In this document: piece after piece, positions 46,687-64,000 of the stretch
How positions within the stretch are numbered: the first letter of the stretch is position 1
Layout: each line of letters starts with the position of its first letter
Assembly (NCBI GenBank): GCA_012729395.1
Contig: JAAYDF010000157.1
Span: 1-64,000, forward strand
DNA length: 64,000 nt
Direction of reading: 5' to 3'
Source of the DNA: Phycisphaerae bacterium
GTDB taxonomy: Bacteria > Planctomycetota > Phycisphaerae > UBA1845 > PWPN01
The notes under the pieces: generated by a model
What the model saw: only the letters and a program-made list of their open reading frames with translations
The model's database searches: none
What the model was told of the DNA's origin: nothing
Translations under genes and position numbers: made by a program

Positions 46687-47751
46687 TCAACGGCCCGCCC
46701 CACACAGCGGCTGGAGCAGCACTTGACGAACCGTTATCTTCATCGCCTCAAACTCCTTGCCAGCATGCACCTGGAAGCCGATTCGCCCGTGGTCGGTGGT
46801 GTCGTCCTTGACGTCAGCCACCTGAAAACCGTTGAGCCAGACCCGCAAACGAGGCCCTTCCGCCCGGATGTCCATCGTGTTCCACCCTTCGTGATTCACC
46901 AAATCCGGATCATCGTTGATCGCCAGGAACATCTTGCCCGGGCAGTAGATTGTCCCGGAATACGCAACCGGGTTGCGGTATTCGAGAATGTCCGCCTGAT
47001 AGGCCTGGCCGCCCGACTGATACCGAAACCAGATGCCCGTATTGGCCGGCCATGCGACGCGGTAGGTCACTTTGAGGTGGAAATCCCGATACGTATCCGT
47101 GGTCAGAAGCTCCCCGTGGGCATCATTGGGGCCCTGGGTGCCTATTAACATGCCCTTCTCCACCTTCCACACGGCGTTGCCCTCGGCCTGCCAGCCGGTC
47201 AGATCCTTACCGTTGAACAGGGGAATCCACTCCGCCGAAGCCTGCCGATCGCGCTCATGATGTGCTCCATGGCAATCGGTGCAGACGCTGTCCTTGGAAA
47301 CCTTCCGACCGTTGGGCCGAATCCGTCCTTGCCACTCGGCAATAAAGGCGTCCACCCGATCTGGATACTGATGGGGCGCTTCATGGCATTTCTGGCAGAG
47401 CGGTACGATCTCGCCACGGCCGAACAGCAAATCCGCCTTATCCACCAGTCCTTCACCGGCCGCGTGCGCCGTGGACAGGCCATGACAGTCGACACACAGC
47501 GTCCCCCCCTTGGCATGAGACGTGGTAATCATCTCCTCGGCAAGCGAAGGATGACACAGCAAGCAAGAGCTATTGTCCACGGGCCGCTGGTCAGCAGACA
47601 CGCCCGCAGGCGACAACACCGGCGCAGCCTCGGTGGGCGGCTCCGGTTTCTCCGGCGACATGGCCCCTTCGGGCTGGGCCTGCCGCACTCCGACAAACGC
47701 CATGACCACGACCACACACGCAGCAAGTGACACTAACGTTTTGGTACCCAT
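46687..47751 (-). CDS. Tetraheme cytochrome c fused to DUF1080 sugar hydrolase-like domain
   Basis: About 354 residues, exported. The ATG at 47751 starts a signal or anchor helix (TLVSLAACVVVVMAFVGV) and sits 13 bases after GAGGAG. Residues about 60-165 carry four c-type heme motifs: CLLCH (63), CVDCH (86), CQKCH (119) and CTDCH (157), plus nearby histidines as possible axial ligands. Residues about 175-354 are a DUF1080 domain (WIPLFNGKDLTGWQAEGNAV, NTGIWFRYQSGG, NHEGWNTMDIRAEGPRLRVW), the family that includes 3-keto-disaccharide hydrolases. The fusion suggests electron transfer beside sugar oxidation or cleavage. It is divergent from the large GHL10 gene. Confidence 0.86.
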   Translation of the reverse strand: MGTKTLVSLAACVVVVMAFVGVRQAQPEGAMSPEKPEPPTEAAPVLSPAGVSADQRPVDNSSCLLCHPSLAEEMITTSHAKGGTLCVDCHGLSTAHAAGEGLVDKADLLFGRGEIVPLCQKCHEAPHQYPDRVDAFIAEWQGRIRPNGRKVSKDSVCTDCHGAHHERDRQASAEWIPLFNGKDLTGWQAEGNAVWKVEKGMLIGTQGPNDAHGELLTTDTYRDFHLKVTYRVAWPANTGIWFRYQSGGQAYQADILEYRNPVAYSGTIYCPGKMFLAINDDPDLVNHEGWNTMDIRAEGPRLRVWLNGFQVADVKDDTTDHGRIGFQVHAGKEFEAMKITVRQVLLQPLCGAGR

Positions 47752-48054
47752 GATGAAGCTGTTCTCCTCGAATCTGCCGTGCCGTGCAAGAAGACCTCCT
47801 GAGTCACCCGGCAATCGTCCGCTATTCAGCCTTGGTTTGCAAGATTACCGGCCCACGCGGCCCGACTTCCCCGGTGAAGTGGCGTTATGCCCGCCTCCGT
47901 TTCCCCCCCGGCTTCAGTCACGAAAACAAGTACTTCGTCGTTGCTGTGGGGATGGGTTGCGGGTATTATATAAATCAGAGGAGGGCATGGAGCCATGTTG
48001 AATAGCGTCAGCGCTGGCTCCCTGCCTGCGGAGTCCTTTCTTAGGAGCCCAACA
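47752..48054. other. Divergent promoter region of the cytochrome-DUF1080 and GHL10 genes
   Basis: A 303-base gap between divergent starts. It holds the promoter at 47941-47969; nothing comparable was seen on the other strand. Upstream in-frame ATGs at 47986 and 47995 for the GHL10 gene lie before its signal peptide and are not favoured. Confidence 0.45.
47941..47969 (+). promoter_or_regulatory. Sigma-70-like promoter of the large GHL10 gene
   Basis: TTGCTG (47941-47946) and TATTAT (47964-47969) are separated by exactly 17 bases. The predicted start of transcription is near 47976, giving an 80-base leader to the ATG at 48055. Confidence 0.55.
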
Positions 48055-51000
48055 ATGAATCTTGCCCAGGCTTGTCTGCGCCCGAGTTACCTGGTCGCCG
48101 CGTGCGTCAGTTTGGTTTTGTTCGCGGCATCTCCGGCATGGTCGGACACGATCGTTATCGTGGACAACTCCGACGCGGGATTCACCGACTACAACAGCGC
48201 ATGGAGTGTCACCAGCATGGATGGCCAATATGGTGACGACTACCACTATAAAACGACCCGAACATCCAGCCCCTACAACCTTGTCGAATGGAGACCCAGC
48301 CTGCCAACGGCGGGGCAATACGAGGTTGCCGTCTGGTACCGCTCCACCGGCTCGGGACGGCCCAACAACGCCCAGTACACGGTCTACCACAGCGGCGGCT
48401 CTTCCGTCGTCACCGTCAATCAGCAAAGCAACGGCTCGACCTGGGTTCTACTCGGTAGTTACGACTTCGCGGCAGGCACCACCGGGTACGTGACCTTGAC
48501 CGACCAAGCTCAACGGAATAAGACCATCATCGCGGACGCCGTTCGCTTCTACAAGCAGGATCCCTTTGAGCTGACCATGGCAGTGAGCCCCCCCGGGAGC
48601 GGAACCACAACTCCCGCGGCAGGCGGCCCATATCCTGCCGATCCGAATGAAGTCGTGGACATCTCCGCCACCCCCGCGGAAGGATACGTCTTCAAACAAT
48701 GGACCGTTTCCGCCGGCTCTGCGGTGGCCAATCCCTTGCTGGCCAACACCACGGTCACCATGGACTCAACCAAAACAGTCACGGCCGTCTTCCAGGAACC
48801 GCAACCCGTCGCGCCTGAGTTTCGAGCTTTCTGGGCCGACGCCTTTCACGAAGGCTACAAGACTGCGGCCCAAACCGACGCGATGATCGCCCGAGCACTT
48901 GAAGGGCGCTACAACGCCATCATCGCTGAAGTTCTTGCTTACCAGGACAACGTGGGCGGCGGACACGGAGCATACTGGACTTCCAGCATCGTGCCCAAAG
49001 CCAGCGACACCGCGTCGGAATTCGATCCTCTGGCTTATCTCTGCCAGCAAGCGGCAGCCAACAACCTGGAAGTTCATTGCTGGCTCGTGGCTTTCCGCGT
49101 CAGCACAACCTGGCCACCCAGCGGCAACACCATCGTCGCCAACCATCCTGAATGGCTGATGGTCACCGAGGCCGACATGGGCAACGGACCGGCAACCGTG
49201 GACGGCTACTACGTGCTTGACCCCGGCTCACCCGAGGCACAGCAGTACCTCATCTCCATCATCCGCGAGATCGCCGACAACTACCCGGTCAACGGCATCC
49301 ATTGGGACTACATCCGATACACCAACAGCAGTGCGGGGTATCCCACCAGTACCACATACACGCAGTCCGGCTTGGCCCGGTTCAGGGAGATCACCGGTTA
49401 CGTCGGCACACCGGCCACCACGGACACGGACTGGCGAGACTTCCGCCGGCGAGGTATCACCGAACTCGTCCGTCGGGCACAGGTCGAGGTAGCTACGGCC
49501 AACAATCCCCGACAACCACTACGGCACAGCGCCGCTCTGATCACCTGGGGTAACGCTCCCAGCGACTTCACCTCCTCCAGCGCCTACGGCATCTACCAGG
49601 ACTGGCGATTCTGGATGGAGCAGGGCTACCTGGACACCGGCGTCCCGATGACCTACTACCGCGAGTATCAGTACCCGACGTGGTACCGCAATTGGGTCGA
49701 TTCGTCGATCGGCTGGCGCTACAATCGACAAATGGTGACCGGTCCAGGCATCTACCTCAACAGCATGGAAGACAGCATCACCCAGATGCAGTATGCCCAG
49801 AGCGCCGGAGCCGACGGCCTCAGCACCTACTCCTACGCCACAACCAATGACACGGGCAGCTACTGGGACTGGTACCCTTACGTCGCCGCCAACCTCTGGA
49901 CCGAGAGCGCCCCAGTGCCAACCATGCCCTGGCGAAACCCGACCACCGCCACCGAGGGGACGCTCTTCGGCCGAGTGACCGACGGCGCTACCGGACTGCC
50001 GGTTGACGACGCCACCGTACAGGCCGGCTCGCGCACAGTCCAAACCGACGGAAACGGATACTATGTCCTCACCCTCTTGCCCGCAACCAGCAGTGGCACC
50101 CTCTACGACGTCACCGGCAGCAAGACCGGCTTGCCAACAACCACGGTTGACGGCGTACGGATCACCGCCGGCGAAACCACACGGCAGGATATCGTGCTCG
50201 GCGACCAGCCGCAGCTCCCGCCGACCATCGCCGAAGTCTCTCCAGAGCCGGTGGAACTTCTCGCGGAGCAACCGTACATACAGCAGTTGACGCTCACCCA
50301 AGGCTCAGCGGACTCATGGTCCGTACTCCAGAGCCCGACCGGCGTATCCGTCGATTCCACCGGGCTCGTCAGCGGTTGGACACCGACTCTCGCGGATGTG
50401 GGCAATCTGTTCGACTTCACCATTCGGGCCACCAATACCGGCGGCAGCGATGATGAAAGCTGGCAGGTCCTGGTCGTTGCCCCGCCGCCCTGCACCGATA
50501 CACTCATCGCCGGTTTCGAGGACATCGCCGACGGAAGCATGGGCATGTTCCGGCATCTTGGCTTTTCCGGAACAACCTCAAGCCATCTGCTCGAATCGCC
50601 CAGCATCAGCGAGGTCACCAGCGACGCCGCCGCCACGGGCAGCAAATCGCAGAAACTCGAGTGGCAGTTTGTCGATGCAACTTCGCCGCGCTGGGCGCGC
50701 GTGAGCACCAACAACGCAACAGACGTACCCAACCCGACCGTTGCCTTCGACAAGCCGATCCGACTGTGCTTCCGGCTGGACAATGGCTCGCTGCGGGTGT
50801 GCCTGGGCCTGCGAGAAACCAACACTGACGCCGCCATCGGTGAAAACGGCGGCATCGAAGGAACCATCGAATGGCTTGGCGCAACCGCGGCCGACGGAAC
50901 CTCGCCCGTAGGCGGCAAGATCCTGAACGCCCGCCCGGGTGTCTGGCAAACCATGATCTTCGATCCGTTGACCGACCCGGTGGTAGCCTTCACCGGCGAC

Positions 51001-51342
51001 GGCGTGCTCAGTTCCACCACCAATAAGGGAACCATCGAACACGTCGGTTTCGCCTGCAACGGCACCGCCGGCCCCTTCACTCTGTACATCGACGATGTCG
51101 CCCAGTTGTGCGAAATGCCGCTGCCTATTCCAGGCGACGCCAACGGGGACGGTGATGTCGACGCCGAGGATCTGTCCGCCTTTGTCGAATGTCTGTCCGG
51201 AGCCAACGTACCACGGGCCGGCGGTTGCGAGGGCTTCAATTTCGACAACGACACCGATGTAGACCTCGATGACTTCGGTATCCTGCAGGGATGCCTCAGC
51301 GGCCCGGACGTGCCCGGCGACCCCACCTGCGATGTCAGGTGA
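48055..51342 (+). CDS. Large secreted multidomain GHL10 protein with dockerin-like end
   Basis: A 1095-residue exported protein. The ATG at 48055 follows AGGAG and opens a signal peptide (YLVAACVSLVLFAASPAWS). Domains in order are: a golvesin-C-like sandwich (about 31-170), a bacterial surface repeat (TMAVSPPGSGTTTP, 175-250), a GHL10 barrel (250-600; FRAFWADAFHEGYK, NGIHWDYIRYTNSS), a carboxypeptidase-regulatory-like domain (LFGRVTDGATGLPVDDATVQ), a putative Ig domain (SGWTPTLADVGNLFDFTIRA), a carbohydrate-binding-like sandwich, and two dockerin-like calcium loops (GDANGDGDVDAEDL; DNDTDVDLDDFG). It is a paralogue of the protein at 27772-29823 with added N-terminal domains. It probably attacks or binds extracellular polysaccharide. 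Confidence 0.86.
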   Translation: MNLAQACLRPSYLVAACVSLVLFAASPAWSDTIVIVDNSDAGFTDYNSAWSVTSMDGQYGDDYHYKTTRTSSPYNLVEWRPSLPTAGQYEVAVWYRSTGSGRPNNAQYTVYHSGGSSVVTVNQQSNGSTWVLLGSYDFAAGTTGYVTLTDQAQRNKTIIADAVRFYKQDPFELTMAVSPPGSGTTTPAAGGPYPADPNEVVDISATPAEGYVFKQWTVSAGSAVANPLLANTTVTMDSTKTVTAVFQEPQPVAPEFRAFWADAFHEGYKTAAQTDAMIARALEGRYNAIIAEVLAYQDNVGGGHGAYWTSSIVPKASDTASEFDPLAYLCQQAAANNLEVHCWLVAFRVSTTWPPSGNTIVANHPEWLMVTEADMGNGPATVDGYYVLDPGSPEAQQYLISIIREIADNYPVNGIHWDYIRYTNSSAGYPTSTTYTQSGLARFREITGYVGTPATTDTDWRDFRRRGITELVRRAQVEVATANNPRQPLRHSAALITWGNAPSDFTSSSAYGIYQDWRFWMEQGYLDTGVPMTYYREYQYPTWYRNWVDSSIGWRYNRQMVTGPGIYLNSMEDSITQMQYAQSAGADGLSTYSYATTNDTGSYWDWYPYVAANLWTESAPVPTMPWRNPTTATEGTLFGRVTDGATGLPVDDATVQAGSRTVQTDGNGYYVLTLLPATSSGTLYDVTGSKTGLPTTTVDGVRITAGETTRQDIVLGDQPQLPPTIAEVSPEPVELLAEQPYIQQLTLTQGSADSWSVLQSPTGVSVDSTGLVSGWTPTLADVGNLFDFTIRATNTGGSDDESWQVLVVAPPPCTDTLIAGFEDIADGSMGMFRHLGFSGTTSSHLLESPSISEVTSDAAATGSKSQKLEWQFVDATSPRWARVSTNNATDVPNPTVAFDKPIRLCFRLDNGSLRVCLGLRETNTDAAIGENGGIEGTIEWLGATAADGTSPVGGKILNARPGVWQTMIFDPLTDPVVAFTGDGVLSSTTNKGTIEHVGFACNGTAGPFTLYIDDVAQLCEMPLPIPGDANGDGDVDAEDLSAFVECLSGANVPRAGGCEGFNFDNDTDVDLDDFGILQGCLSGPDVPGDPTCDVR

Positions 51343-52933: not shown

Positions 52934-52974
52934 TTATGCACGATTGTTGGATGGCCTGTGCCGGGAGCGATCCA

Positions 52975-53616
52975 GTGTCCTTAGCCCCGCTTCGACGAGC
53001 CAACTTCGTGGACGACGCCCACGCGGCGATCAAGCAGTTGATTGCCAGCGGCGAACTGCGAGCGGGCACGCAGCTCAAGATCGAGAGCCTGTCGCGCCGG
53101 CTCGGGGTGAGCAGTTCGCCCATCCGCGAGGCCCTTCGGCGGCTGGAGAACGAACGCTGGGTACAGACCATCCCCTTTCGCGGAGCGTTCGTTCGGCCGT
53201 TCGATGAGCGGGAACTGCGTGAGCTCTATGAGATCCGCGAGTTCATCGAGATGGGTGCCCTGCGCAAGCTGCTCAACCTGGAACCCCGACCCGGGCTGGA
53301 AACACTTCAAGAGGCGTACGCGGCGATCCAAGCGGCATTGACGGCGGGTGATCCCGCGGCCCACTTGGCCGCCGACGTTCGCTTTCATCAAGCCATTGTG
53401 GACTTAGCGGGCAATCGGCGGCTGAGCGAGATGTTCGCGACGCTGGTGGAACAGGGCAAGTGCTTCATGCTCGGTCGTTCGCCAGAGGCCATGGCCCGGC
53501 AACGCGAAGGGGCCGACCAACACGCGGAACTGCTCGCGCTGATCGGCCGCGGGGATGCGCCAACGGCCCTGCAACTGCTGGAAGATCATCTGCGGGTCAC
53601 CGGGGCGGGGACATAA
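52975..53616 (+). CDS. GntR-family (FadR/FCD-type) transcriptional regulator
   Basis: A 213-residue repressor or activator. The N-terminal winged helix (FVDDAHAAIKQLIASGELRA; SLSRRLGVSSSPIREALRRL) is typical of GntR. The C-terminal all-helical FCD effector domain includes LRELYEIREFIEMGALRKL and ADVRFHQAIVDLAGNRRL. The Asp and His residues of that domain are placed as in metal-binding FCD proteins, which often sense sugar acids. The start GTG at 52975 is chosen from the promoter and the GGGAG seven bases upstream; an ATG at 52951 is the alternative. It heads a same-strand block of glycan genes and probably controls it. Confidence 0.85.
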   Translation: MSLAPLRRANFVDDAHAAIKQLIASGELRAGTQLKIESLSRRLGVSSSPIREALRRLENERWVQTIPFRGAFVRPFDERELRELYEIREFIEMGALRKLLNLEPRPGLETLQEAYAAIQAALTAGDPAAHLAADVRFHQAIVDLAGNRRLSEMFATLVEQGKCFMLGRSPEAMARQREGADQHAELLALIGRGDAPTALQLLEDHLRVTGAGT

Positions 53617-53662: not shown

Positions 53663-55609
53663 ATGCGAGTATGTCGAGCGATGTACGGGGAGCGCGGTCT
53701 TGTGGCAGGCTGCTTGCTGGTCCTTTGCGTGCTTGGGCTACTGGGCGGGTGCTCGACGTCGCGCGAAGCCCCGGTCGAGCTGGTGGCCGGCCAAGAAACC
53801 GACGGCCCGTGGTGGATACGGGAGACGGCGCTGACGCCGGACGGTGTGCTCGACCTGGGCGACAAGCCGTGGTGGGAACAGGCCCAAGCTCTGGCGGTCG
53901 GCGAGGGTTTCGCCATCCCGGCTGAGGGGCCGGCCGAGGACCGCATGTTCGTCCGTCGTGAGCGGGTCACCACGCGGGCGGGCAAGCAGACAGACGCGAT
54001 CGTTTGGATCATCGACGACGACGAGAACGGCAGTGCCCTGACCGGCGGGGATCCGCATTCCGACTGCTACGTCGTGGACTACGACGGCGACGGTCTGGTC
54101 GATCGCGTGGTCGACTGGATCGACAACGACAGCGATAGCCTCCCCAACGAAATGGACATCCGCTACTTCGCCAACGGCCGGCTGAACTACTGCTGGTTCG
54201 GCATGGACCTCGACGGCGACGGGCACATGTGGAGCCTGACGGGGTACGAATACGGCGGCCCGAGCTTCTTCGAGGCCGACCCGCACGGCGACAACATGAT
54301 CTACATGAACAAGTTCAACCCGCACACCGGCACCTGGTATCCGATCTCGGAGTGCCCGTTCGCGTTCTATGACATGGACGGCGACGGGCTGAGCGAGGTG
54401 GTCGTGCGGGTTAGTGCCGTGCCGCTCGACTATGACCCCAGCGCCCATCCGGACTACGCGAACAACCAGTACGCGATGGAGTGGAGCCCGGAGATGGCGT
54501 GCATGGGGGTGGTCAACATCCGCTATGGGTTCGACTTGGACAACGGCAACAGCGATGATCGGCCGCTGCACTACGAGATGGGCTTCAACCTGGTGGGTGC
54601 CGAGCCGTACGAGTTCCGGGGCATGCGCCACTACAACCCGCGACGACGCCCGCCGCAGACCACCTGTGTGATCCCGCACGACCGGCTGCGGGCGATCGGC
54701 GGCCGCTTCCCGGCCCGCGAGACGGGTTTCAGTTGGCATGAGCATTACGACGACACCATCGCGATCGGGCACGGGCCGTGGAAGGACGAGGACTGGCGGT
54801 GGGAGGGCGTGTTCTGGATCTGGGAGCGGCGGTTCATGGAGAACACCGGCGGGCCGTGCCAGAAATGGAACGTCCGCCGCGAATGGCGAGGCAGCGCGAC
54901 AGACCGGCGCGAGTTGTACTACAGCGGCGTGGACCGGCGCATCCACTTACGCGGGGCGACAGAAGGCTGGATCCAGGTCGGAAACTTCGCCGGGCAGGGC
55001 GAGCTGTTCGAGATCCGCATGTTGGATACCAGTGGGAACGGTTACTTCGACCGGTGGGAGGTCTGGTCGCCGGACAGCCCTGTACCGGTGCGGGTGACCA
55101 GCGTGCGCGATGAGAAGGTGGAGCGGATCTCGCTAGACTACGATCGCCTGGTAGAGCGATACACTGAGGAGATCCTGCCGGAGGCGATGGCGGCCAACGA
55201 GCGTCTGTTGGCGGCGATGAGCCGGGTGAAGCCCTTCGACGTGCCGGCCAGCCTGACGGAGGCACTGCAAAGCGATTCGCCCAACCACCGGCGATACGTC
55301 CAGGATGTGATCCGCGAGGTGCAGTACCAGGATCTGCGTTGGCATTTGCACGAGCAAGCCCACGAGGTGATCCGCACCGCGAAGATGGACGACCTGCGGC
55401 CGCTGCCGGAGGATGCCCGCCGCAGCACCTGGAACTCACAGACCGCATGGCAGGTGATTCGCCACTTGCAGGAGATGGATATCGCTTATGGCGAAGGCGA
55501 GTACGAACGAGCGTGCGTCATACTTGCGGAGTTGAAGGAAGCGATGGCGGAAGTGGAAGGCGAGAAGCGAGAAGATGGACGAGCGCTCCAAGCAGAGCCG
55601 CGACCGTAG
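53663..55609 (+). CDS. Secreted lipoprotein with DxDGDG calcium-loop-like repeats
   Basis: A 648-residue lipoprotein (lipobox LLGGC near residue 30). Residues about 110-260 contain calcium-loop-like repeats: DYDGDGLVD, DNDSDSLPNE, DLDGDGHM and DMDGDGLSE. A middle region rich in Trp and Tyr follows (WRWEGVFWIWERRFMENTGG; ELYYSGVDRRIHLRGATEGW), then DTSGNGYFDRWEVW, and an alpha-helical C-terminus. No catalytic family was recognised. It is clearly related to the protein starting at 61496. The last residues (AEPRP-stop) are encoded by a family A palindrome. It lies 46 bases after the GntR gene, so the two are probably co-transcribed. Confidence 0.72.
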   Translation: MRVCRAMYGERGLVAGCLLVLCVLGLLGGCSTSREAPVELVAGQETDGPWWIRETALTPDGVLDLGDKPWWEQAQALAVGEGFAIPAEGPAEDRMFVRRERVTTRAGKQTDAIVWIIDDDENGSALTGGDPHSDCYVVDYDGDGLVDRVVDWIDNDSDSLPNEMDIRYFANGRLNYCWFGMDLDGDGHMWSLTGYEYGGPSFFEADPHGDNMIYMNKFNPHTGTWYPISECPFAFYDMDGDGLSEVVVRVSAVPLDYDPSAHPDYANNQYAMEWSPEMACMGVVNIRYGFDLDNGNSDDRPLHYEMGFNLVGAEPYEFRGMRHYNPRRRPPQTTCVIPHDRLRAIGGRFPARETGFSWHEHYDDTIAIGHGPWKDEDWRWEGVFWIWERRFMENTGGPCQKWNVRREWRGSATDRRELYYSGVDRRIHLRGATEGWIQVGNFAGQGELFEIRMLDTSGNGYFDRWEVWSPDSPVPVRVTSVRDEKVERISLDYDRLVERYTEEILPEAMAANERLLAAMSRVKPFDVPASLTEALQSDSPNHRRYVQDVIREVQYQDLRWHLHEQAHEVIRTAKMDDLRPLPEDARRSTWNSQTAWQVIRHLQEMDIAYGEGEYERACVILAELKEAMAEVEGEKREDGRALQAEPRP

Positions 55610-55659
55610 GGGAGCGGTGGCTCCAGCAGGGAAGAACCGCTTCCTCACGGGCGCGGCTC
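55595..55659. repeat. REP-like palindrome, family A, copy 3
   Basis: The arms GAGCCGCGACCGTAGGGGAG and CTTCCTCACGGGCGCGGCTC surround a divergent loop (GTGGCTCCAGCAGGG). It overlaps the 3' end of the lipoprotein gene, whose TAG stop (55607-55609) lies in the left arm. Confidence 0.75.
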
Positions 55660-55699
55660 TGATTGGGCGGGACGGGCGATTCAAGGCGGGAGGAAGGTC

Positions 55700-56740
55700 G
55701 TGAGCAAGATTGGAATCGGGATCATCGGGTCGGGTTTCATGGGGCGGACGTACGCGGAGACAATCAGCCGGTACTGCTCGCGGGCGAAGCTGCGGGCGGT
55801 GGCGTGCGGCTCGCGGGCGGGGCAGCTGGCCCAGGACTACGGTGTACCGCTGGAGTCGTCGGCCGAGGCCCTGATCGCCAGGGACGACGTTGCCGCGGTG
55901 TTCATCGCCACGCCACATCATCTGCACGCCGAGCAGGCCCTGGCGGCCGCGGCCGCGGGCAAGCACATCCTGCTTGAGAAACCGATGGCGTGCACGGTGG
56001 CCGACTGCGACGCGATCATCGAGGCGTGCCGGTCGGCCAATGCCTGGTGCACCATCGCCTTTTCGCAACGGACGCGCCAATGCAACATCAAGGCCAAGCA
56101 GCTCATCGACGACGGAGTGATCGGGCGTATCCTGCAGATGCAGGAGCTCTCGCTGGTTGCCACGGGCTTGGCCGGCCTACCCAAGTGGCAGAGCGACTCG
56201 GAGAACCTGGGCACGCTGTTCGGCCACGCGATCCACAACTTCGACCGCATCCGCTGGTTCACCGGGTCCGAGATCCGCACGGTGTACGCCAAATGCGGCA
56301 GCATCGAGCCCGGAACGCGGGTCGAGGGTACCTCGATGGTGCTCATGAGCCTGACCGATGGAGCGACGGCACACCTGTGGGAGTCGTTCCAGGTACCGAA
56401 GCCGTCGTTCCCGCGAGCCCAGTTCGGCACATGGATCATCGGCGAGCGCGGGCTGATCGATCTGGACGCCTACGGCGAGCTGCGGGTGGCCATGGATGGG
56501 CAGTGGAAAGTGGAGGCGACACAGGCCCCGATCGACTGGGCGGGCAAAGGCTTCTTGGATCCCGTGCGGCTGGAAAGCTACACGTTGCAGTGCCAGGACT
56601 TCATCGACGCGATCGCCGATCGACGCCCGCCTGCTGTAACCGGGTGGGACGGCCGACAGGCGGTGGCGGCGGCCCTGGCGTGCTACGAGTCGTCGCGCAC
56701 GGGGAAGGAGATTGTGCTTCCGGGGGAAAATGCGAAATGA
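55700..56740 (+). CDS. Gfo/Idh/MocA-family oxidoreductase
   Basis: A 346-residue NAD(P)-dependent sugar or cyclitol dehydrogenase-like protein. The start is GTG, with GGAGG six bases before it. The Rossmann motif is GIGIIGSGFMGRTYAE. The nicotinamide-side signature is AVFIATPHHLHAEQALAAAA followed by the EKP of HILLEKPMACTVADC. The C-terminal sheet domain includes GTLFGHAIHNFDRIRWF, with the catalytic-region histidines. It lacks a signal peptide. Members oxidise or epimerise sugars, often via 3-keto intermediates. That fits with a DUF1080 protein elsewhere in the window and with the glycan genes beside it. Confidence 0.88.
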   Translation: MSKIGIGIIGSGFMGRTYAETISRYCSRAKLRAVACGSRAGQLAQDYGVPLESSAEALIARDDVAAVFIATPHHLHAEQALAAAAAGKHILLEKPMACTVADCDAIIEACRSANAWCTIAFSQRTRQCNIKAKQLIDDGVIGRILQMQELSLVATGLAGLPKWQSDSENLGTLFGHAIHNFDRIRWFTGSEIRTVYAKCGSIEPGTRVEGTSMVLMSLTDGATAHLWESFQVPKPSFPRAQFGTWIIGERGLIDLDAYGELRVAMDGQWKVEATQAPIDWAGKGFLDPVRLESYTLQCQDFIDAIADRRPPAVTGWDGRQAVAAALACYESSRTGKEIVLPGENAK

Positions 56741-57255
56741 GACTTGCAGTAGCATTGCAGAGCACACAGGCACGGCCTTGTTCATTTGACCGGTGTTCAT
56801 CCGTGTTCATCTGTGGTTGACACTCTTTGTTCGGTGAGATGATGGCGCACGCAACACAATCAACGGAGCTGCTCGCCAAGACCCAGACGGTAGCTAAAGC
56901 CGCGATATAGGAGGAGAACAAACCACAGAGGAATGCGAAGAGAAGGAACCACGGATCAACACAGATGGACACAGATGGGGCGGAGGACACTGGATGGCTG
57001 CATGAGGATCTGGCGCGTAAATTGGAGATTGCAGATTCGAGATCGGAGGTCGGAGATCGGAGATTCGAGATTGCAGAGTGCAGATTCGAGATTGCAGATC
57101 GGAGATTCGAGATCGCGGATTGGGGCAAAGAGGAAACAGAACAAACAGAGGAAACAGAGCGAACAGAGACAACGAGCCTGGCTCCCTCTGTTGCCTCTGT
57201 TTCCTCTTGTTCACAACTCCTCAATCTTTGAGGATACAGCGGCAAAGGGCACATC
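56741..57255. repeat. Intergenic block of word-like tandem and inverted repeats
   Basis: Three vocabularies occur. GTGTTCATCCGTGTTCATCT (from 56793) is inverted relative to ACGGATCAACACAGATGGAC (from 56951). Bases 57024-57120 repeat GAGATTGCAGATTC and GAGATCGGAG words in tandem. AAGAGGAAACAGAACAAACA (from 57128) pairs with TGCCTCTGTTTCCTCTTG (57192-57209). No gene is supported, and the low GC of this stretch contrasts with its surroundings. Confidence 0.75.
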
Positions 57256-58551
57256 ATGAAGTCTGAGCAATCACAGCGACTGATGGAGCGGGCCCGGCGG
57301 ACTTGCCCGGGCGGGATTCACAGCAACGTGCGGGCGAACTGGCAGCCGACGCCGATGTTCTACGACCGCGGGCAGGGCTCACGGGTGTGGGACGCGGACG
57401 GCAATGAGTTCATCGACTACGTGCTGGCCCGGGGGCCGTTGTTGTTGGGGCATTCGCCCGGGCCGGTGATCGAGGCGGTCAAACGGCAACTGGACCGCGG
57501 GCTGATGTACGCCGGCCAGAGCGTGCTGGAGATCGAGGCGGCCGAGCGGTTCGTGAAGCTGGTGCCGTGCGCGGATCTGGTGCGGTTCAGCAACTCGGGC
57601 AGCGAGGCGATCCACGCGGCGATGCGGCTGGCGCGGGCGGTGACCGGGCGGACAAAGATCGTCCGTTTCGAGGGCCACTACCACGGCTGGTTCGACAACG
57701 CCTTCTGGAACTACGCCCCGCCGCTGAACCAGGCGGGCCCGCGCGAGTCACCGCAGCCCCGGCCGGTCAGTCGCGGGCAGGTGGCCAGCGACGCGGAGAA
57801 CCTCATTGTCCTGCCGTGGAACGATCTGGCCCTGGCAGAGCGAGCGTTCGCGGCCCACGGTAACGCCATTGCCGCGGTGCTGACCGAGCCGATCATGTGC
57901 AATTGCGGAGCGATCATGCCTCGGCCGGGCTACCTGGAAGGGCTGCGGGAGTTGTGCACACGGCATGGCTCGTTGCTAATCTTCGACGAGGTCATAACGG
58001 GTTTTCGCGTGAGTCTCGGTGGTGCCCAGCAGTACTTCGGCGTGACACCGGACTTGGCGACATTCGCGAAGGGGATGGCCGGCGGCTTCCCGGTCAGCGC
58101 GGTGGCCGGCCGACGCGAGTACATGGAGGAGTTCGGCACGCTGACGGTCACCCACGCGGGGACGTATAACTCGAACCCGCCGTGCATGGCTGCCACCCGC
58201 GCGGCGCTGGACATGCTCTCGGCCGACGACGGGGCCCTGCTCAAGCATGCACACGCCATGGGTGAGCAGCTCATGACGGGCATCAAGGCGCTGGGCCGCG
58301 CTGCCGGCCGGGATGTACACGTCCGCGGCGTGCCCACCGCGTTCTTCGTCTCGTTCAACGACCGGGAGGAGATCGTGGATTACCGCACCTCGACCACGCG
58401 CGACCGCGACGCGTACGGCCGGTTCTGGACGGCTCTGCAAGAGCGCGGCATCCGCACGATCCCAGAGGGTCTGTGGTTCGTTTCGACGGCGCATACGCAA
58501 GCGGACGTGGATGAGACGCTGGCGGCGGTGAAGGAGGCGATGGGAGCGTAG
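57256..58551 (+). CDS. Class III aminotransferase, glutamate-1-semialdehyde aminomutase-like
   Basis: A 431-residue PLP enzyme. It has the GSA-aminotransferase layout: GIHSNVRANWQPTPMFYDRG at the N-terminus, FSNSGSEAIHAAMRLAR (PLP phosphate site), FEGHYHGWFD, LIFDEVITGFRVS (PLP Asp244) and ATFAKGMAGGFPVSAVAGR with Lys272 as the Schiff-base lysine. True HemL for tetrapyrrole synthesis cannot be excluded. The position in a glycan block, and the absence of other heme genes, favours an amino-sugar or other catabolic aminotransferase. The ATG follows AAAGGG. It follows the oxidoreductase gene after a repeat-rich gap of 515 bases. Confidence 0.85.
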   Translation: MKSEQSQRLMERARRTCPGGIHSNVRANWQPTPMFYDRGQGSRVWDADGNEFIDYVLARGPLLLGHSPGPVIEAVKRQLDRGLMYAGQSVLEIEAAERFVKLVPCADLVRFSNSGSEAIHAAMRLARAVTGRTKIVRFEGHYHGWFDNAFWNYAPPLNQAGPRESPQPRPVSRGQVASDAENLIVLPWNDLALAERAFAAHGNAIAAVLTEPIMCNCGAIMPRPGYLEGLRELCTRHGSLLIFDEVITGFRVSLGGAQQYFGVTPDLATFAKGMAGGFPVSAVAGRREYMEEFGTLTVTHAGTYNSNPPCMAATRAALDMLSADDGALLKHAHAMGEQLMTGIKALGRAAGRDVHVRGVPTAFFVSFNDREEIVDYRTSTTRDRDAYGRFWTALQERGIRTIPEGLWFVSTAHTQADVDETLAAVKEAMGA

Positions 58552-58587
58552 TAAGGTCAATATGATGACACCGGATGACGTTCCACG

Positions 58588-58690
58588 GTAGCGGCCGCCC
58601 CCTGACTTCGGCGAGCTCAGCCGAGCCGTGGCGGCCGGCGTGGGAGAGCTTTATCGCCGCCCAGCGGCCGCCAGGGGCGGCGGCCGCTAC
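58588..58690. repeat. GTAGCGGCCGCC palindromic element
   Basis: The arms GTAGCGGCCGCCCCCTG and CCAGGGGCGGCGGCCGCTAC enclose a centre with TGACTTCGGCGAGCTCAGCC and GAGCCGTGGCGGCCGGCG, nearly identical to that at 35183-35282. A short relative (GGTAGCGGCCGGCCCCGTGG) lies at about 61098. It precedes the start of the lyase-like gene, so open frames across it are not coding. Confidence 0.72.
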
Positions 58691-58768
58691 GAAGCAGCAA
58701 TGGCATGCTCAAGGCTGAAGGCACTGGAAAGAAGTGAGAGACGGCACACAACAAACGAGGGTGTGGCA

Positions 58769-61069
58769 ATGAGATATCTGCGCGTTGGGGTTGCGGTTGC
58801 CTTGGTCGGATTGGCTGCGGGGTCGCCGGCTTTGGCGGCGAAGCGGGCGGCAGGCGCCGAAGTACCTTCGAATACGGTGCCGGAGTTTCCGTCGCTGCGG
58901 CCGCGGCTGGAGAAGGCCCTCGACCGCTGGTGCCGCTGGCTCTCGGGCTATCTGTACCAGATCCCAGGCACCGACCTGTACACGCTGAACCCAACGCTGG
59001 GCACGGGGGCAAACCCCTACCGCGACGTGGCGGGCAACCAGTTCGCCGCGGCGGCGGCAGGCTACTGGCTGCATCGCTCCAAGCCTGATGAGGCGACAGC
59101 CGAGCCCCTGCGCGGCCTGATTCGGCTGGCGCTCGGCACGCACATCGCGAATAACACCATCGACCGGCCGGACATCCAGAAGTGGGGCGCCACCCTCACG
59201 CATGCCGACGACTGGCATGCGGACCTGTTCGCCGTCGCCCAGGGCATGCTGCTCCTCGACGCCCTGCCGCCCGAGCGACGCGAGCAGATGCGTCGCATCC
59301 TCGAATGGGAGGCGGACAAGCAGGTGGAGTACGGCGTCAGCAAAGAATGGCGAACCTGGCCCGGGCGCTCGCCGGGCCATTCGTGCGGCGAGTCCAACTC
59401 GTGGTCGGCGACGCTACTGCAGATGGCCCGTCTGGCGATGCCCGGCTCCGAGCGGCACGCGGCCTGGCGCGAATCCGCGATCGAGTACTCGCTCAACGCG
59501 ATCTGCACGCCCGCGGACATGACCTCCGACGAGATTGTCGGCGGCAAGCCACTCAAAGAACGCGTCAAGGGGGCCAACTTCGAGCCCGGCGGCATCCAGG
59601 AACATCATTACTTCTATCACCCCGGCTACATGGGCTGGCCGCTGGCCTACCAAGCGTACGCGCACCTGATGGACCAGGCCCTGCCCGCCGACCAGCGGAA
59701 CGCGGACGTCTACCTTCACAACTGGCGACTGGCTTACGACCGGCTTAAACAGGGCACGTTCAGCAACGGCCGCTTCATCCATTGCGCGGGCGACGACTGG
59801 ATCACCTACGGCTACGGCAATACGCAGTTCATGCCCGCCGCCCTGTTCGCCGCTGCCGAGTTCCGCGACCCGGACGCATCGCGGATCGTCGACGAGTGGC
59901 TCAAAATGATCGAGATGCAGCAGGATCTCACCGGCGGGAGCGTGCAGGGTGCCCGGCTGGCGACCATGCTGCGGCTGCGACTCAATGACTTCTCCTGGTA
60001 CGAAGGCCAGGAGGGCTGCTGCCTGGCCCAGGCCCTGTGGGTGCTGGATCGGATCGACCCGGCGGCGATCCCCGCCCCGGCCAGCGAGGCGGAGTACGAC
60101 AAACGCAACACCAGCACCTACCACGAGCCCAACGCCAACCTCATCTGGCATCGCGACGAACACCGTTGGGCGTCGTTCTCTTGGCGAGCCTACCGCAAGC
60201 AGGCCCAGGCCATCGTCCAGCCGATCGGTCTGCCGCACCTGCTGCGATTCAACGCGAACTCGACGGGCATCCTGCAAATCTCCGGCCTGAGCCCGAGCTA
60301 CGAGATCGAATGGTTTGAGCTGGCCCCCTTCGCGGAGGGCGGCTTCTGGTCGCTCGGCAGCATCGGCCGCGAGTCCAAGCGAGTCATCCACGAGAAGGCC
60401 ACGAGAACAATCGCTCCGTTGGTGCGGCAATATCAGGCCCTGGTCGCATTGCCCGAGGGGCCGACGGTGTTCATCGACCAGTGCCGGGCGCTCGACCAGC
60501 TCTGGCTGCTGCGGACGGGGGCGCTGGGCATGCGGCTAGCGGCGGACGTGTTCAACGGCAACGCGGTACGGCTGGCGTGGGACGGGCAGGAGCGGACGTT
60601 CGGCCAAGCCGACTGCCGCGACGTCTGGCATGATCTGGGTACGCGATCCATCACCGTCGAGAAACTGCTGACGATTCATGCCTTGACGGGTGACGGGACC
60701 TTCCAGTTCCTGCAGAAACGCAAGCGCTCGCCCGACCGCAGCGAGATGATCGCAGGCGACGATGCGTTTGGTCCGGAGGAATCGCTGCTGAGCCATGAGT
60801 TGTATTTCGGCCCGCCGGCGTACGACCGGCCGCGAATCCTCAACCCCCAGGATTGGGTGCAGCAGATCGTGCTGGTGGCGTATTGCGACCCAGCCAACAC
60901 ACCCGCGCGGCCAACGGGCACGGTCAGCGGAGCGTTCCCGTGTCTCGCGGTTCACCTGCCGGATGCGGGCTGTACAATAGCCGTCAACTTCGCTGAGGAT
61001 GATCAGTCGGTCGATTCGCCGGCTGGGCGAATCACCGTCGGTCCGCGAAGCGTACGCATCGTGCGGTAA
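58769..61069 (+). CDS. Secreted polysaccharide-lyase-like protein (alpha-toroid plus beta-sandwich)
   Basis: A 766-residue exported protein. The ATG at 58769 follows GAGGG and begins the signal peptide MRYLRVGVAVALVGLAAG. Residues about 30-400 are helical with spaced aromatic and His/Asn motifs (LTHADDWHADLFAVAQGML; CGESNSWSATLLQMARLAM; QEHHYFYHPGYMGWPLAYQ; HCAGDDWITYGYGNTQFMP). This layout resembles the (alpha/alpha) toroid of chondroitin, hyaluronate and alginate lyases, where Asn, His and Tyr are catalytic. The rest is beta-rich (LLRFNANSTGILQISGLSP). The lyase family cannot be assigned by eye. It would cut uronic-acid polysaccharide outside the cell. Confidence 0.72.
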   Translation: MRYLRVGVAVALVGLAAGSPALAAKRAAGAEVPSNTVPEFPSLRPRLEKALDRWCRWLSGYLYQIPGTDLYTLNPTLGTGANPYRDVAGNQFAAAAAGYWLHRSKPDEATAEPLRGLIRLALGTHIANNTIDRPDIQKWGATLTHADDWHADLFAVAQGMLLLDALPPERREQMRRILEWEADKQVEYGVSKEWRTWPGRSPGHSCGESNSWSATLLQMARLAMPGSERHAAWRESAIEYSLNAICTPADMTSDEIVGGKPLKERVKGANFEPGGIQEHHYFYHPGYMGWPLAYQAYAHLMDQALPADQRNADVYLHNWRLAYDRLKQGTFSNGRFIHCAGDDWITYGYGNTQFMPAALFAAAEFRDPDASRIVDEWLKMIEMQQDLTGGSVQGARLATMLRLRLNDFSWYEGQEGCCLAQALWVLDRIDPAAIPAPASEAEYDKRNTSTYHEPNANLIWHRDEHRWASFSWRAYRKQAQAIVQPIGLPHLLRFNANSTGILQISGLSPSYEIEWFELAPFAEGGFWSLGSIGRESKRVIHEKATRTIAPLVRQYQALVALPEGPTVFIDQCRALDQLWLLRTGALGMRLAADVFNGNAVRLAWDGQERTFGQADCRDVWHDLGTRSITVEKLLTIHALTGDGTFQFLQKRKRSPDRSEMIAGDDAFGPEESLLSHELYFGPPAYDRPRILNPQDWVQQIVLVAYCDPANTPARPTGTVSGAFPCLAVHLPDAGCTIAVNFAEDDQSVDSPAGRITVGPRSVRIVR

Positions 61070-61495
61070 CCCTGCGAGGCGGATGCAGAGCCACACGGTA
61101 GCGGCCGGCCCCGTGGCGGCCGGCGACTCGAACGCGTGTACACGAAGCACTGCTCACGGAGCAGTGCCACACGAGAACGTGTACGCGCAGCACCGCTCGC
61201 AGGACCGTGGCGCACGAGGGGTTGCATGAGAGCTTGCACGCGGGTGTACGGGCGGGTGGCCCATCCTTGCGCAGCAAGGGTGGGTTGGCGATGATCGAAC
61301 GCGTAAGGGGTGGCATGGGTCGGTACTCCGACCCGTGGTTGGGCCGGGGGAAGCCACGGGCCTGAGTACAGGCCCATGCCACCCGTCGGGGCGCCGGAGA
61401 CTTGTACGCGATCCGCACTGCTCGAAGAGCAGTGGCACACGGGAGCGTTCCAGGGGGTCGTGCGAAGCCGCAAGCGGCGGTAGAGGAGAGATCAG
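61070..61495. repeat. Intergenic cluster of four palindrome families
   Basis: This gap has no gene. It holds a GTAGCGGCCGG element near 61094. Three CTGCTC...GAGCAG-type hairpins lie near 61146, 61190 and 61415. A hairpin CCCATCCTTGC-GCA-GCAAGGGTGGG is at 61260-61283. A four-arm palindrome at 61308-61384 has outer arms GGGTGGCATGGG and CCCATGCCACCC and inner stems around TCGGTACTCCGA and CCTGAGTACAGG. Confidence 0.72.
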
Positions 61496-64000
61496 ATGTT
61501 CGGAAGCGGTGGGAACGTGAATCCGTGGCGGCCGGGTGTGGTTGCGCGTGTGGGTGTGGTTGCCGGTGTGGTGATTGCCCTGCTGCCTGCCGGGCGAGTG
61601 GCTGCATCGGACGATGTGCGTCAGACGCTGTATGAGCGGGTGTTTGGCAAGGCGGCGGCGCTCGACCCTGAGATGGTCGCCAAGGTCAAGGCCGCCAAGC
61701 CGGGCGAATTCCTGCTGGTCGATTCCGACGGCGATGGGCGTGTGGATGAAGCCTGGTTCATCGATCCTTCGCTCCGGCATCAGGACAAAAACCGGCCGAT
61801 CCTCGTCCGGGCCATCGACGAGGACGGCGACCTCGAAAAGGACGGCCGCCCGGACCTCGACAGCGACCTCTACGTGGTGGATTGGAGGGCCGACGGCACA
61901 GTCGACGTCCTGCTCGATTACCAGGATAACGACGGCGACAACGACGTGGACGAGATGGCCTTCTACTTCCATATGCCCAACCATCCGTGGTTCGGCAAGG
62001 ACGTGCTCCGTACCTGGTGGGGCCGCGACGACGGCGACGACAACTTGCTGTGGTACGACGTGGACTACACCTACTACCAGGATCTCTGCCAGTACCGTTG
62101 CCATTTCAGCGGAGACGAGTCGTTCGTAGCCTTTGGCTTGCTGGCCGACAGTGAAGAATGGCTCAGCGCGTTCGAGAATCCCTTCCTGTTCTACGACGAA
62201 GACGGTGACGGATGCGGCGAGGTCGTGCTGCGGGTCGAAGGACGGGGCAACGAGGTACGGAGCATCCGGTACAGCTTCGACGCGGACGACGACGCCTTCG
62301 GCCGGCGAACGCACGACTACGATTTCTCGATCACCGCCGTCGCTCCCTCAGACCAGCCCGTGCGTCTACCGGCCAACGGGGTTACCCACACGACCTTGCG
62401 CGGCCTGCCCACCCAGCCCTGGCTGGACCGCGAGCACGCCCGGCCGTTCGTGACCCAGGCCTCATGGGAGCGCGCGTTGCTGACCTGGGACGAGATGAAC
62501 GCGAATACCGAGGCCAACGTTCAGCGCGATCCCAACGAACGCTGGGAGGGCGTCATCGCCCACAAATCCGAGCATTTCCCGCAAATCGGCGGCCCGCCGT
62601 GCAGCCCGCTCAATAAGCGAAACGAACTCAGCCTCAGACCCGTGACCCCGTTGCGGCTGTACTACGACCCCACCGACCACCGGCTACATCTGCTGGGAGC
62701 CAACGAGGGCTGGCTGCATGTGGACTACGATTTCGACGGCAAGGTCGACGCCCGTTATACGTACCTGGATGAGGACGGCGACGGCGTTTTCGACCGCCGG
62801 CAACTCGACCTCGACGCCGACGACCAGGTGGACTTCGACTGGAAGATGGCCGGCCGAGTCGATCGTGAGATCCCGCTCGACTTCAAGGCCATCAGCACGT
62901 TCTACAAAGCCGAGTTGGCCCGCACGCTGGACGCCAGCGACCAGTTCATCGAGGCGGCCTACACGGCGGTTTCTACGATTATCGCCCCGGACTCCACGGC
63001 GCAGCCCCAGCCCGACCTGCCCGGCCACACCGGCGGATTACCTGACTCATTTGTGGGAGCCCTGATGGCCGCCGACTCCTTCATGCACGGCGTCGAGCAC
63101 TGGATGCCCGAGACCGGGCTCGGGGCCCACATCCGCAAGAGCCCTGCGGGGATACGCTTCTATTCCGACCTGGTGCGTGACCGTCTGCTGCTGGCCCTCA
63201 AACAGCAGTTCGGCACATACACCGCCTGGGACCGGATCGAGACCCTGTACGCCGCCGGGGACTTCGCCGCCGCCGCCCTGCTCATCAGGCAGGAACTCCT
63301 CGGCGATCCGGATGAGTTGGATAACCTGCGGTTCAGCCTCGGCAGCTGCCGCATCGCCGTGCGGATCGAGAACCCCTCCGACTCGCCGCGGCACGACTGG
63401 CCTGTCGCCATTCCCATCCGCCAGATCACCGCAGCCGACGCGGGCTTCCGTGCTGAGACTTGTTCGGTCGAAGGACCCGAGCAGTGGATCGCCGGCCGCC
63501 AAATCCCCCACCAGATCGACGAGATTGACCCGGCAATCGGCGCGGAGTTGACCTTCCTGGCGGATCTGCCCCCCCGCGGGGCAGCCACCTACTACATTGC
63601 CTACACCCCCGAAGGTCATGCCGGCCGACAGCCCACGCACAGGACCGGCACCGCCGAGGACTGGATCCCGCCCAACATCGGGTGGGAGTCCAACCGCGTC
63701 GCCTACCGGGCCTATTGGGGGCAGTTCGACTTCTTCGGCAAGAAGATCAGGCAACTGATCTACCCGACCATCGGGAAAACCAGCTACCACCAGGAGGTAG
63801 AATGGGGTATCGACGCGCTGCACGTGGGGCAGACGGGAGGCTTGGGGGGCTTGACGCTCTATCACGGCGATAAGGCTTTTCTCGTGCAGAACCCGGCCGG
63901 CAAGGGCGAGGTCCAGTTCACCAAGCGGCAGCTCGTGAGCGGGCCCGTGCGGGCGGCGATCGAGTTCGTCGCGACGAACGTCTGCCCCTCGCGGCTGGAC
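61496..64000 (+). CDS. Secreted DxDGDG-repeat protein with DUF4861-like domain (3' end outside window)
   Basis: The frame is open from ATG 61496 (AGGAGAG seven bases upstream) to the end of the window, 835 codons with no stop, so the gene is partial. A signal peptide follows the start (VVAGVVIALLPAGRVAA). Residues about 70-460 carry calcium-loop-like repeats (DSDGDGRVDEAW, DNDGDNDVDE, DEDGDGCGEV, DFDGKVDARY, DEDGDGVFDRRQLDLDADD). They align with the lipoprotein at 53663 (FYDEDGDG against FYDMDGDG; LHLLGANEGWLHVD against IHLRGATEGWIQV). From about residue 620 a DUF4861-like domain begins (NPSDSPRHDWPVAIPIRQI; YRAYWGQFDFFGKKIRQLIY; VGQTGGLGGLTLYHGDKAF). It is probably a glycan-processing or glycan-binding surface protein. 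Confidence 0.8.
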   Translation, partial: MFGSGGNVNPWRPGVVARVGVVAGVVIALLPAGRVAASDDVRQTLYERVFGKAAALDPEMVAKVKAAKPGEFLLVDSDGDGRVDEAWFIDPSLRHQDKNRPILVRAIDEDGDLEKDGRPDLDSDLYVVDWRADGTVDVLLDYQDNDGDNDVDEMAFYFHMPNHPWFGKDVLRTWWGRDDGDDNLLWYDVDYTYYQDLCQYRCHFSGDESFVAFGLLADSEEWLSAFENPFLFYDEDGDGCGEVVLRVEGRGNEVRSIRYSFDADDDAFGRRTHDYDFSITAVAPSDQPVRLPANGVTHTTLRGLPTQPWLDREHARPFVTQASWERALLTWDEMNANTEANVQRDPNERWEGVIAHKSEHFPQIGGPPCSPLNKRNELSLRPVTPLRLYYDPTDHRLHLLGANEGWLHVDYDFDGKVDARYTYLDEDGDGVFDRRQLDLDADDQVDFDWKMAGRVDREIPLDFKAISTFYKAELARTLDASDQFIEAAYTAVSTIIAPDSTAQPQPDLPGHTGGLPDSFVGALMAADSFMHGVEHWMPETGLGAHIRKSPAGIRFYSDLVRDRLLLALKQQFGTYTAWDRIETLYAAGDFAAAALLIRQELLGDPDELDNLRFSLGSCRIAVRIENPSDSPRHDWPVAIPIRQITAADAGFRAETCSVEGPEQWIAGRQIPHQIDEIDPAIGAELTFLADLPPRGAATYYIAYTPEGHAGRQPTHRTGTAEDWIPPNIGWESNRVAYRAYWGQFDFFGKKIRQLIYPTIGKTSYHQEVEWGIDALHVGQTGGLGGLTLYHGDKAFLVQNPAGKGEVQFTKRQLVSGPVRAAIEFVATNVCPSRLD

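Follow-up and report, generated by a model that had tools for sequence, protein, structure and literature searches.

What do two related proteins with DxDGDG loops do in a block of metabolic genes? The question arises from the window, the whole 64,000-base stretch analysed here, with which a 76,421-bp contig (C124) begins. In the preliminary description, the two proteins were taken to bracket a polysaccharide or uronate system built on an undescribed surface protein family. The answer that we favour, with some reserve, is that the block serves glycan utilisation and centres on an exported family not described before. Its features are listed below in window numbering.

52936-53616, + strand: GntR-family regulator with an FCD ligand domain, at the head of the block (Pfam GntR E 1.3e-16, FCD E 1.1e-21)
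53663-55609, + strand: PA, a 648-aa lipoprotein-like DxDGDG protein without DUF4861 (homology to PB)
55700-56740, + strand: Gfo/Idh/MocA-family dehydrogenase (Pfam GFO_IDH_MocA E 2.7e-24)
57027-57120, + strand: 21-base tandem repeat in the gap between the dehydrogenase and aminotransferase genes (TRF)
57256-58551, + strand: class III PLP aminotransferase, glutamate-1-semialdehyde aminomutase-like (Pfam Aminotran_3 E 2.9e-62)
58769-61069, + strand: facultative exported protein, the 'lyase-like' gene, whose likely start at 58769 yields the signal peptide MRYLRVGVAVALVGLAAG
61496-64000 in the window, + strand: PB, an exported DxDGDG protein fused to DUF4861 (DUF4861 profile, alignment)
63341-64000, + strand: window part of the DUF4861 domain, a predicted galactose-mutarotase-like supersandwich (structural matches of the model)
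64441-65175 and 65182-65940, past the window end: two Amidohydro_2 proteins, after PB
66368-68755, past the window end: double alpha/beta hydrolase (double esterase), glucuronyl-esterase-like (GCE_fung E 1.4e-21)

Open reading frames were found at 53663 and 61496 as first described, and the two motifs quoted for them, FYDxDGDGxxEVVxRV and YY..xDxRxHLxGAxEGW, occur in both PA (FYDMDGDGLSEVVVRV and YYSGVDRRIHLRGATEGW) and PB (FYDEDGDGCGEVVLRV and YYDPTDHRLHLLGANEGW). The relatedness first described is borne out by BLASTP (E 5e-31, 29% identity, 441 aa aligned) and by the suggested profile-profile comparison of the two families, in which independently built alignments were matched with hhalign (E 6e-43, probability 100). 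The local alignment score lies 51 standard deviations above that of shuffled sequences and still 24 above it when the acidic loops are masked, so Asp-rich composition does not account for the match. In a whole-genome search, PB is the sole relative of PA and PA the sole relative of PB. PA and PB are true homologues, and they constitute an undescribed exported protein family without a name. The N-terminus of PA carries a lipobox-like LGGC, and the export signals, as read from sequence, predict that PA is lipid-anchored and PB secreted. The earlier label of PB as a truncated protein reflects the window edge only; on the contig, PB is complete at 982 aa and ends at 64444.

The two proteins share a module of approximately 400 residues. 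For this module, neither Pfam nor NCBIfam returned a model above cut-off, and the PDB yielded no sequence match either. PA itself gave nothing above cut-off in Pfam and nothing in NCBIfam. A TcdB_toxin_midN hit (E 0.011, 26 residues, below cut-off) fell on one acidic loop and was discarded, and an FG-GAP propeller assignment (PF13517, PF01839) reached 16.4 bits vs a cut-off of 26.9. FG-GAP profiles also found no match in 11 PB members. Beyond its own genome, a phylum-wide search of a sparse sample with PA yielded short, weak matches only. Four Dx[DN]x[DN]G motifs are present in each protein; shuffled sequences would yield about 0.1 (p 0.0005). Loops of the Dx[DN]xDG kind are known calcium sites in many folds, among them the propeller blades found in integrin and in the PL11 lyase YesW (PMC3123361). 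The module carries calcium-type loops that probably bind the ion, and it probably folds as a calcium-blade beta-propeller.

A joint alignment of 12 PA and 23 PB sequences (n=35) contains 53 near-invariant columns, which cluster in the acidic-loop region and comprise the loop aspartates and the elements RWEG, NxRxE and HL. The corresponding segments are the following.

54371-54412, + strand: best Dx[DN]xDG loop of PA, residues 237-250, DMDGDGLSEVVVRV (joint alignment)
54797-54970, + strand: shared signature RWEG, GGP, NxRxE, HL, EGW in PA, residues 379-436 (joint alignment)
62540-62713, + strand: the same signature in PB, residues 349-406 (same columns as PA)

Asp237, Asp239, Asp241 and Glu245 of the PA loop are conserved in 35/35 PA and PB sequences, as are R379, W380, E381, G382, N403, R405, E407, H428 and L429 of the PA signature. 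Among the 23 PB sequences, near-invariant positions account for 87/384 of the acidic-loop region, 20/365 of DUF4861 and 5/157 of the helical linker, which makes the N-terminal module the most constrained part of PB. This pattern makes the RWEG / NxRxE / HL signature the leading candidate for a ligand or active site. PA and PB might instead be structural, calcium-stabilised surface proteins of an envelope scaffold or of adhesion, whose proximity to the metabolic genes would be due to chance or to shared regulation. Asp-rich calcium loops are commonly structural (PMC3123361), and no catalytic residues are known or demonstrated in either protein. We nevertheless regard a purely structural role as improbable, because a compact invariant signature lies beyond the loops and because co-location with the same metabolic genes is strict in many genera and in another phylum.

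The loops also bear on a narrower form of the glycan hypothesis, a uronate-polymer system in which PB or PA would be a calcium-dependent polysaccharide lyase of PL11-propeller-like architecture. Comparison with planctomycete PL11 propellers (hhalign) gave a weak, local similarity, with a probability of 33 for PA and 11 for PB compared with 0.5 and 0.4 for the controls. This similarity is restricted to the surroundings of the calcium loops, and a search of the same genomes with the PL11 C-terminal model (RGL11_C) returned neither PA nor PB.

DUF4861 is confined to the second protein, as first described: residues 624-973 of PB match positions 1-380/380 of PF16153 (E 1.1e-39, 136.9 bits vs a cut-off of 22.3), a score obtained from the full protein, read beyond the window end. 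PB is the single DUF4861 gene of the genome. Structure prediction, proposed earlier for both proteins, produced models too weak for the folds to be shown as unrelated. For PA, the model is poor (pLDDT 56), and its fold matches, mostly helical bundles with Z 7 or less, were left unused. The PB model (pTM 0.63, pLDDT 66) has fold matches confined to DUF4861, which it places with supersandwich domains from GH38, GH94, GH65 and PL26 (E 3e-6 with Foldseek; Z up to 12.8). The matches to GH38 C-terminal domains reach Z 12.8 over 226-280 residues, with model pLDDT <50 at 708-784. DUF4861 of PB is thus predicted to be a galactose-mutarotase-like supersandwich, as in glycan enzymes. PL26, one of these matches, is a lyase, which would suit a uronate polymer. 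A literature search found no paper naming DUF4861 or PF16153 and none relevant on BT_3233. In a Pirellulales genome, the PB homologue lies inside a 1,663-aa open frame (L065:3891-8879), far longer than other PB proteins.

The two proteins do not bracket the locus. PA lies near its start and PB in its middle, and the two amidohydrolases and the double esterase continue past the window. In relatives, the core order is GntR - PA - sodium:solute symporter - Gfo/Idh/MocA dehydrogenase - class III aminotransferase - PB - two amidohydrolases. PB was found in 11/114 genomes of the order, and PA is present in 11/11 of those. Two further genomes have PA without PB, both incomplete and with PA on short contigs; about 100 have neither, including two members of the window's own family. 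With the window proteins as tblastn queries, the full order from GntR to the second amidohydrolase was recovered in G040, G042, G044 and G041, the last cut at a contig end. Three genomes (G032, G035, G036) have the same block without a visible GntR gene or cut at an end, and four (G016, G038, G039, G045) have it in pieces at contig ends. The double esterase lies near the block in several relatives. The regulator heads the locus, as first described, and its orthologs hold the same position in relatives. The block is conserved across the planctomycete family and partly in other phyla.

In the window, the block lacks the sodium:solute symporter, an ortholog of which, at 59% identity, is located on contig C40 (L116:11917-13722, G000), opposite a 1,495-aa protein without a Pfam match and near another Gfo/Idh/MocA gene. 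No export signal was seen in the dehydrogenase, which scores below the IolG equivalog cut-off (154 vs 355 bits). The PDB relatives of the aminotransferase are mostly aminomutases and class III aminotransferases; it falls below both model cut-offs for glutamate-1-semialdehyde aminomutase, with 396.4 vs 398 bits (PRK00062) and 366.8 vs 527.3 bits (hemL). The 515-base gap between the two genes, which is short or absent in most relatives, contains tandem repeats of 7, 18 and 21 bases at 57021-57168. Two further genes of note precede the block. The first (46687-47814, - strand) encodes a 375-aa protein whose N-terminal half has four CXXCH heme motifs and is fused to a 3-keto-disaccharide hydrolase domain (PF06439, E 1.1e-33), an unusual pairing of redox and 3-ketoglycoside parts. 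The second (47995-51342, + strand), just upstream of the block, encodes 1,115 aa with a golvesin C-terminal domain, a GHL10 glycosyl-hydrolase-like domain and, at the end, a weak dockerin-like match.

The 'lyase-like' name given to the gene at 58769 has no profile support, and the protein found no match in Pfam, NCBIfam or PDB. Full-length orthologs (65-66% identity) occur in G040, G044 and G045, all of which have PB. The gene adjoins PA in G045 only, that is, in just 1/3 of the other genomes with an ortholog, and lies on contigs away from the block in G040 and G044. Contrary to its earlier inclusion in the system, it is a facultative companion and not a core part.

Much of this gene content could also belong to an operon for the catabolism of a small molecule, such as an aminocyclitol or an amino acid derivative, with PA and PB as surface binding or sensing proteins only. 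The symporter, a dehydrogenase near inositol-type dehydrogenases, the class III aminotransferase, the FCD-GntR regulator and the amidohydrolases would all suit a small amino compound. No clear glycoside hydrolase or lyase profile was found in the planctomycete core block, which counts against the glycan reading. We consider a small-molecule operon unlikely, given the glycan-enzyme supersandwich predicted in PB and the occurrence of PB orthologs in SusC/SusD loci with glycoside hydrolases.

These loci were found by a degenerate-pattern scan, which detected PB in Planctomycetota, Candidatus Eisenbacteria, Hydrogenedentota, Bacteroidota and one unassigned bacterium. In a Hydrogenedentota locus (L069), PB adjoins the same aminotransferase, dehydrogenase, symporter and esterase as in the planctomycete block; in both Hydrogenedentota genomes, the PA ortholog lies on a separate contig. 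In Bin_79R, PB, the first and second amidohydrolases and PA are contiguous in this order, with a sulfatase and a GH43-type protein after them. The PB neighbours in one Bacteroidota locus (L072) include SusC/SusD, GH109-C (E 1e-37), GH28, a sulfatase/phosphodiesterase, a DegT aminotransferase and a ceramidase-like protein. Another Bacteroidota PB locus contains GH123 (E 1e-53), GH2, GH16, an MFS transporter and a glucosamine-6-phosphate-isomerase-family protein, and a NagA-like fragment, read by eye, lies beside the isomerase-family gene. By analogy with these loci, which otherwise contain different genes from the window, the glycan may contain an N-acetylhexosamine or another amino sugar.

The survey of homologue neighbourhoods thus places PB recurrently beside carbohydrate genes in other phyla. 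Of the original proposal, an exported family in a conserved carbohydrate-type locus stands; the uronate assignment is not established. A glucuronyl-esterase-like protein in the block would fit uronates, as would an FCD-type GntR regulator. Uronate-isomerase pathway genes were not recognised in the block, and the Bacteroidota loci suggest N-acetylhexosamines instead. On balance, a uronate polymer is a doubtful substrate.

For the favoured glycan-utilisation locus, the following pathway can be proposed. Secreted PB and lipid-anchored PA would bind, and perhaps cleave, a glycan outside the cytoplasm through the calcium-loop module, to which PB adds DUF4861, a predicted supersandwich of the glycan-enzyme kind. 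The sodium:solute symporter would bring in the released sugar, and cytoplasmic enzymes would then act on it: the Gfo/Idh/MocA dehydrogenase would oxidise it and the class III aminotransferase would transaminate or deaminate it. The two amidohydrolases would process the product further, the esterase would strip ester decorations, and the FCD-GntR regulator would sense an acidic intermediate. A bolder version, which we offer as speculation with little weight, would make the shared DxDGDG module the founder of a novel family of glycan-active enzymes, with a calcium-blade fold and an RWEG / NxRxE / HL active site. Its two copies, a free lipoprotein and a DUF4861 fusion, would serve a planctomycete amino-sugar-glycan pathway that proceeds via dehydrogenation and transamination and not by the phosphorylated NagA/NagB route.

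Glycan breakdown in Planctomycetota outside the class Planctomycetia is described as little characterised (PMC11131199), and the block provides a defined gene set for its study. Strict conservation in at least four phyla, combined with the lack of a Pfam or NCBIfam entry, makes the module a good candidate for a carbohydrate-active family not yet described, and it would supply a functional context for DUF4861.

Several known systems resemble the locus in part. The calcium-blade beta-propellers (integrin FG-GAP, PL11 YesW, PilY1) share with PA and PB export and Dx[DN]xDG loops that recur between predicted strands, whereas PA and PB have no FG-GAP match above cut-off and only a weak, local similarity to PL11. 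PB matches the full Pfam model of DUF4861 but falls far below the cut-off of the BT_3233 family polysaccharide utilization protein (NF058564; 46.7 bits vs 320), its DUF4861 being fused to an N-terminal part of ~600 residues. The predicted DUF4861 fold is similar to the supersandwich domains of GH38, GH94, GH65 and PL26 (Z 10 to 12.8 over 180-280 residues), but identity is 5-15% and the catalytic domains of these enzymes were not detected in PB by profile. As in the polysaccharide utilization loci of Bacteroidota, the PB orthologs of two Bacteroidota genomes keep company with glycoside hydrolase genes, and one of the two orthologs directly follows a SusC/SusD pair. In the planctomycete block, by contrast, no SusC/SusD pair was seen among the genes read (52936 to about 68755 on the contig), and a sodium:solute symporter occupies the transport position.
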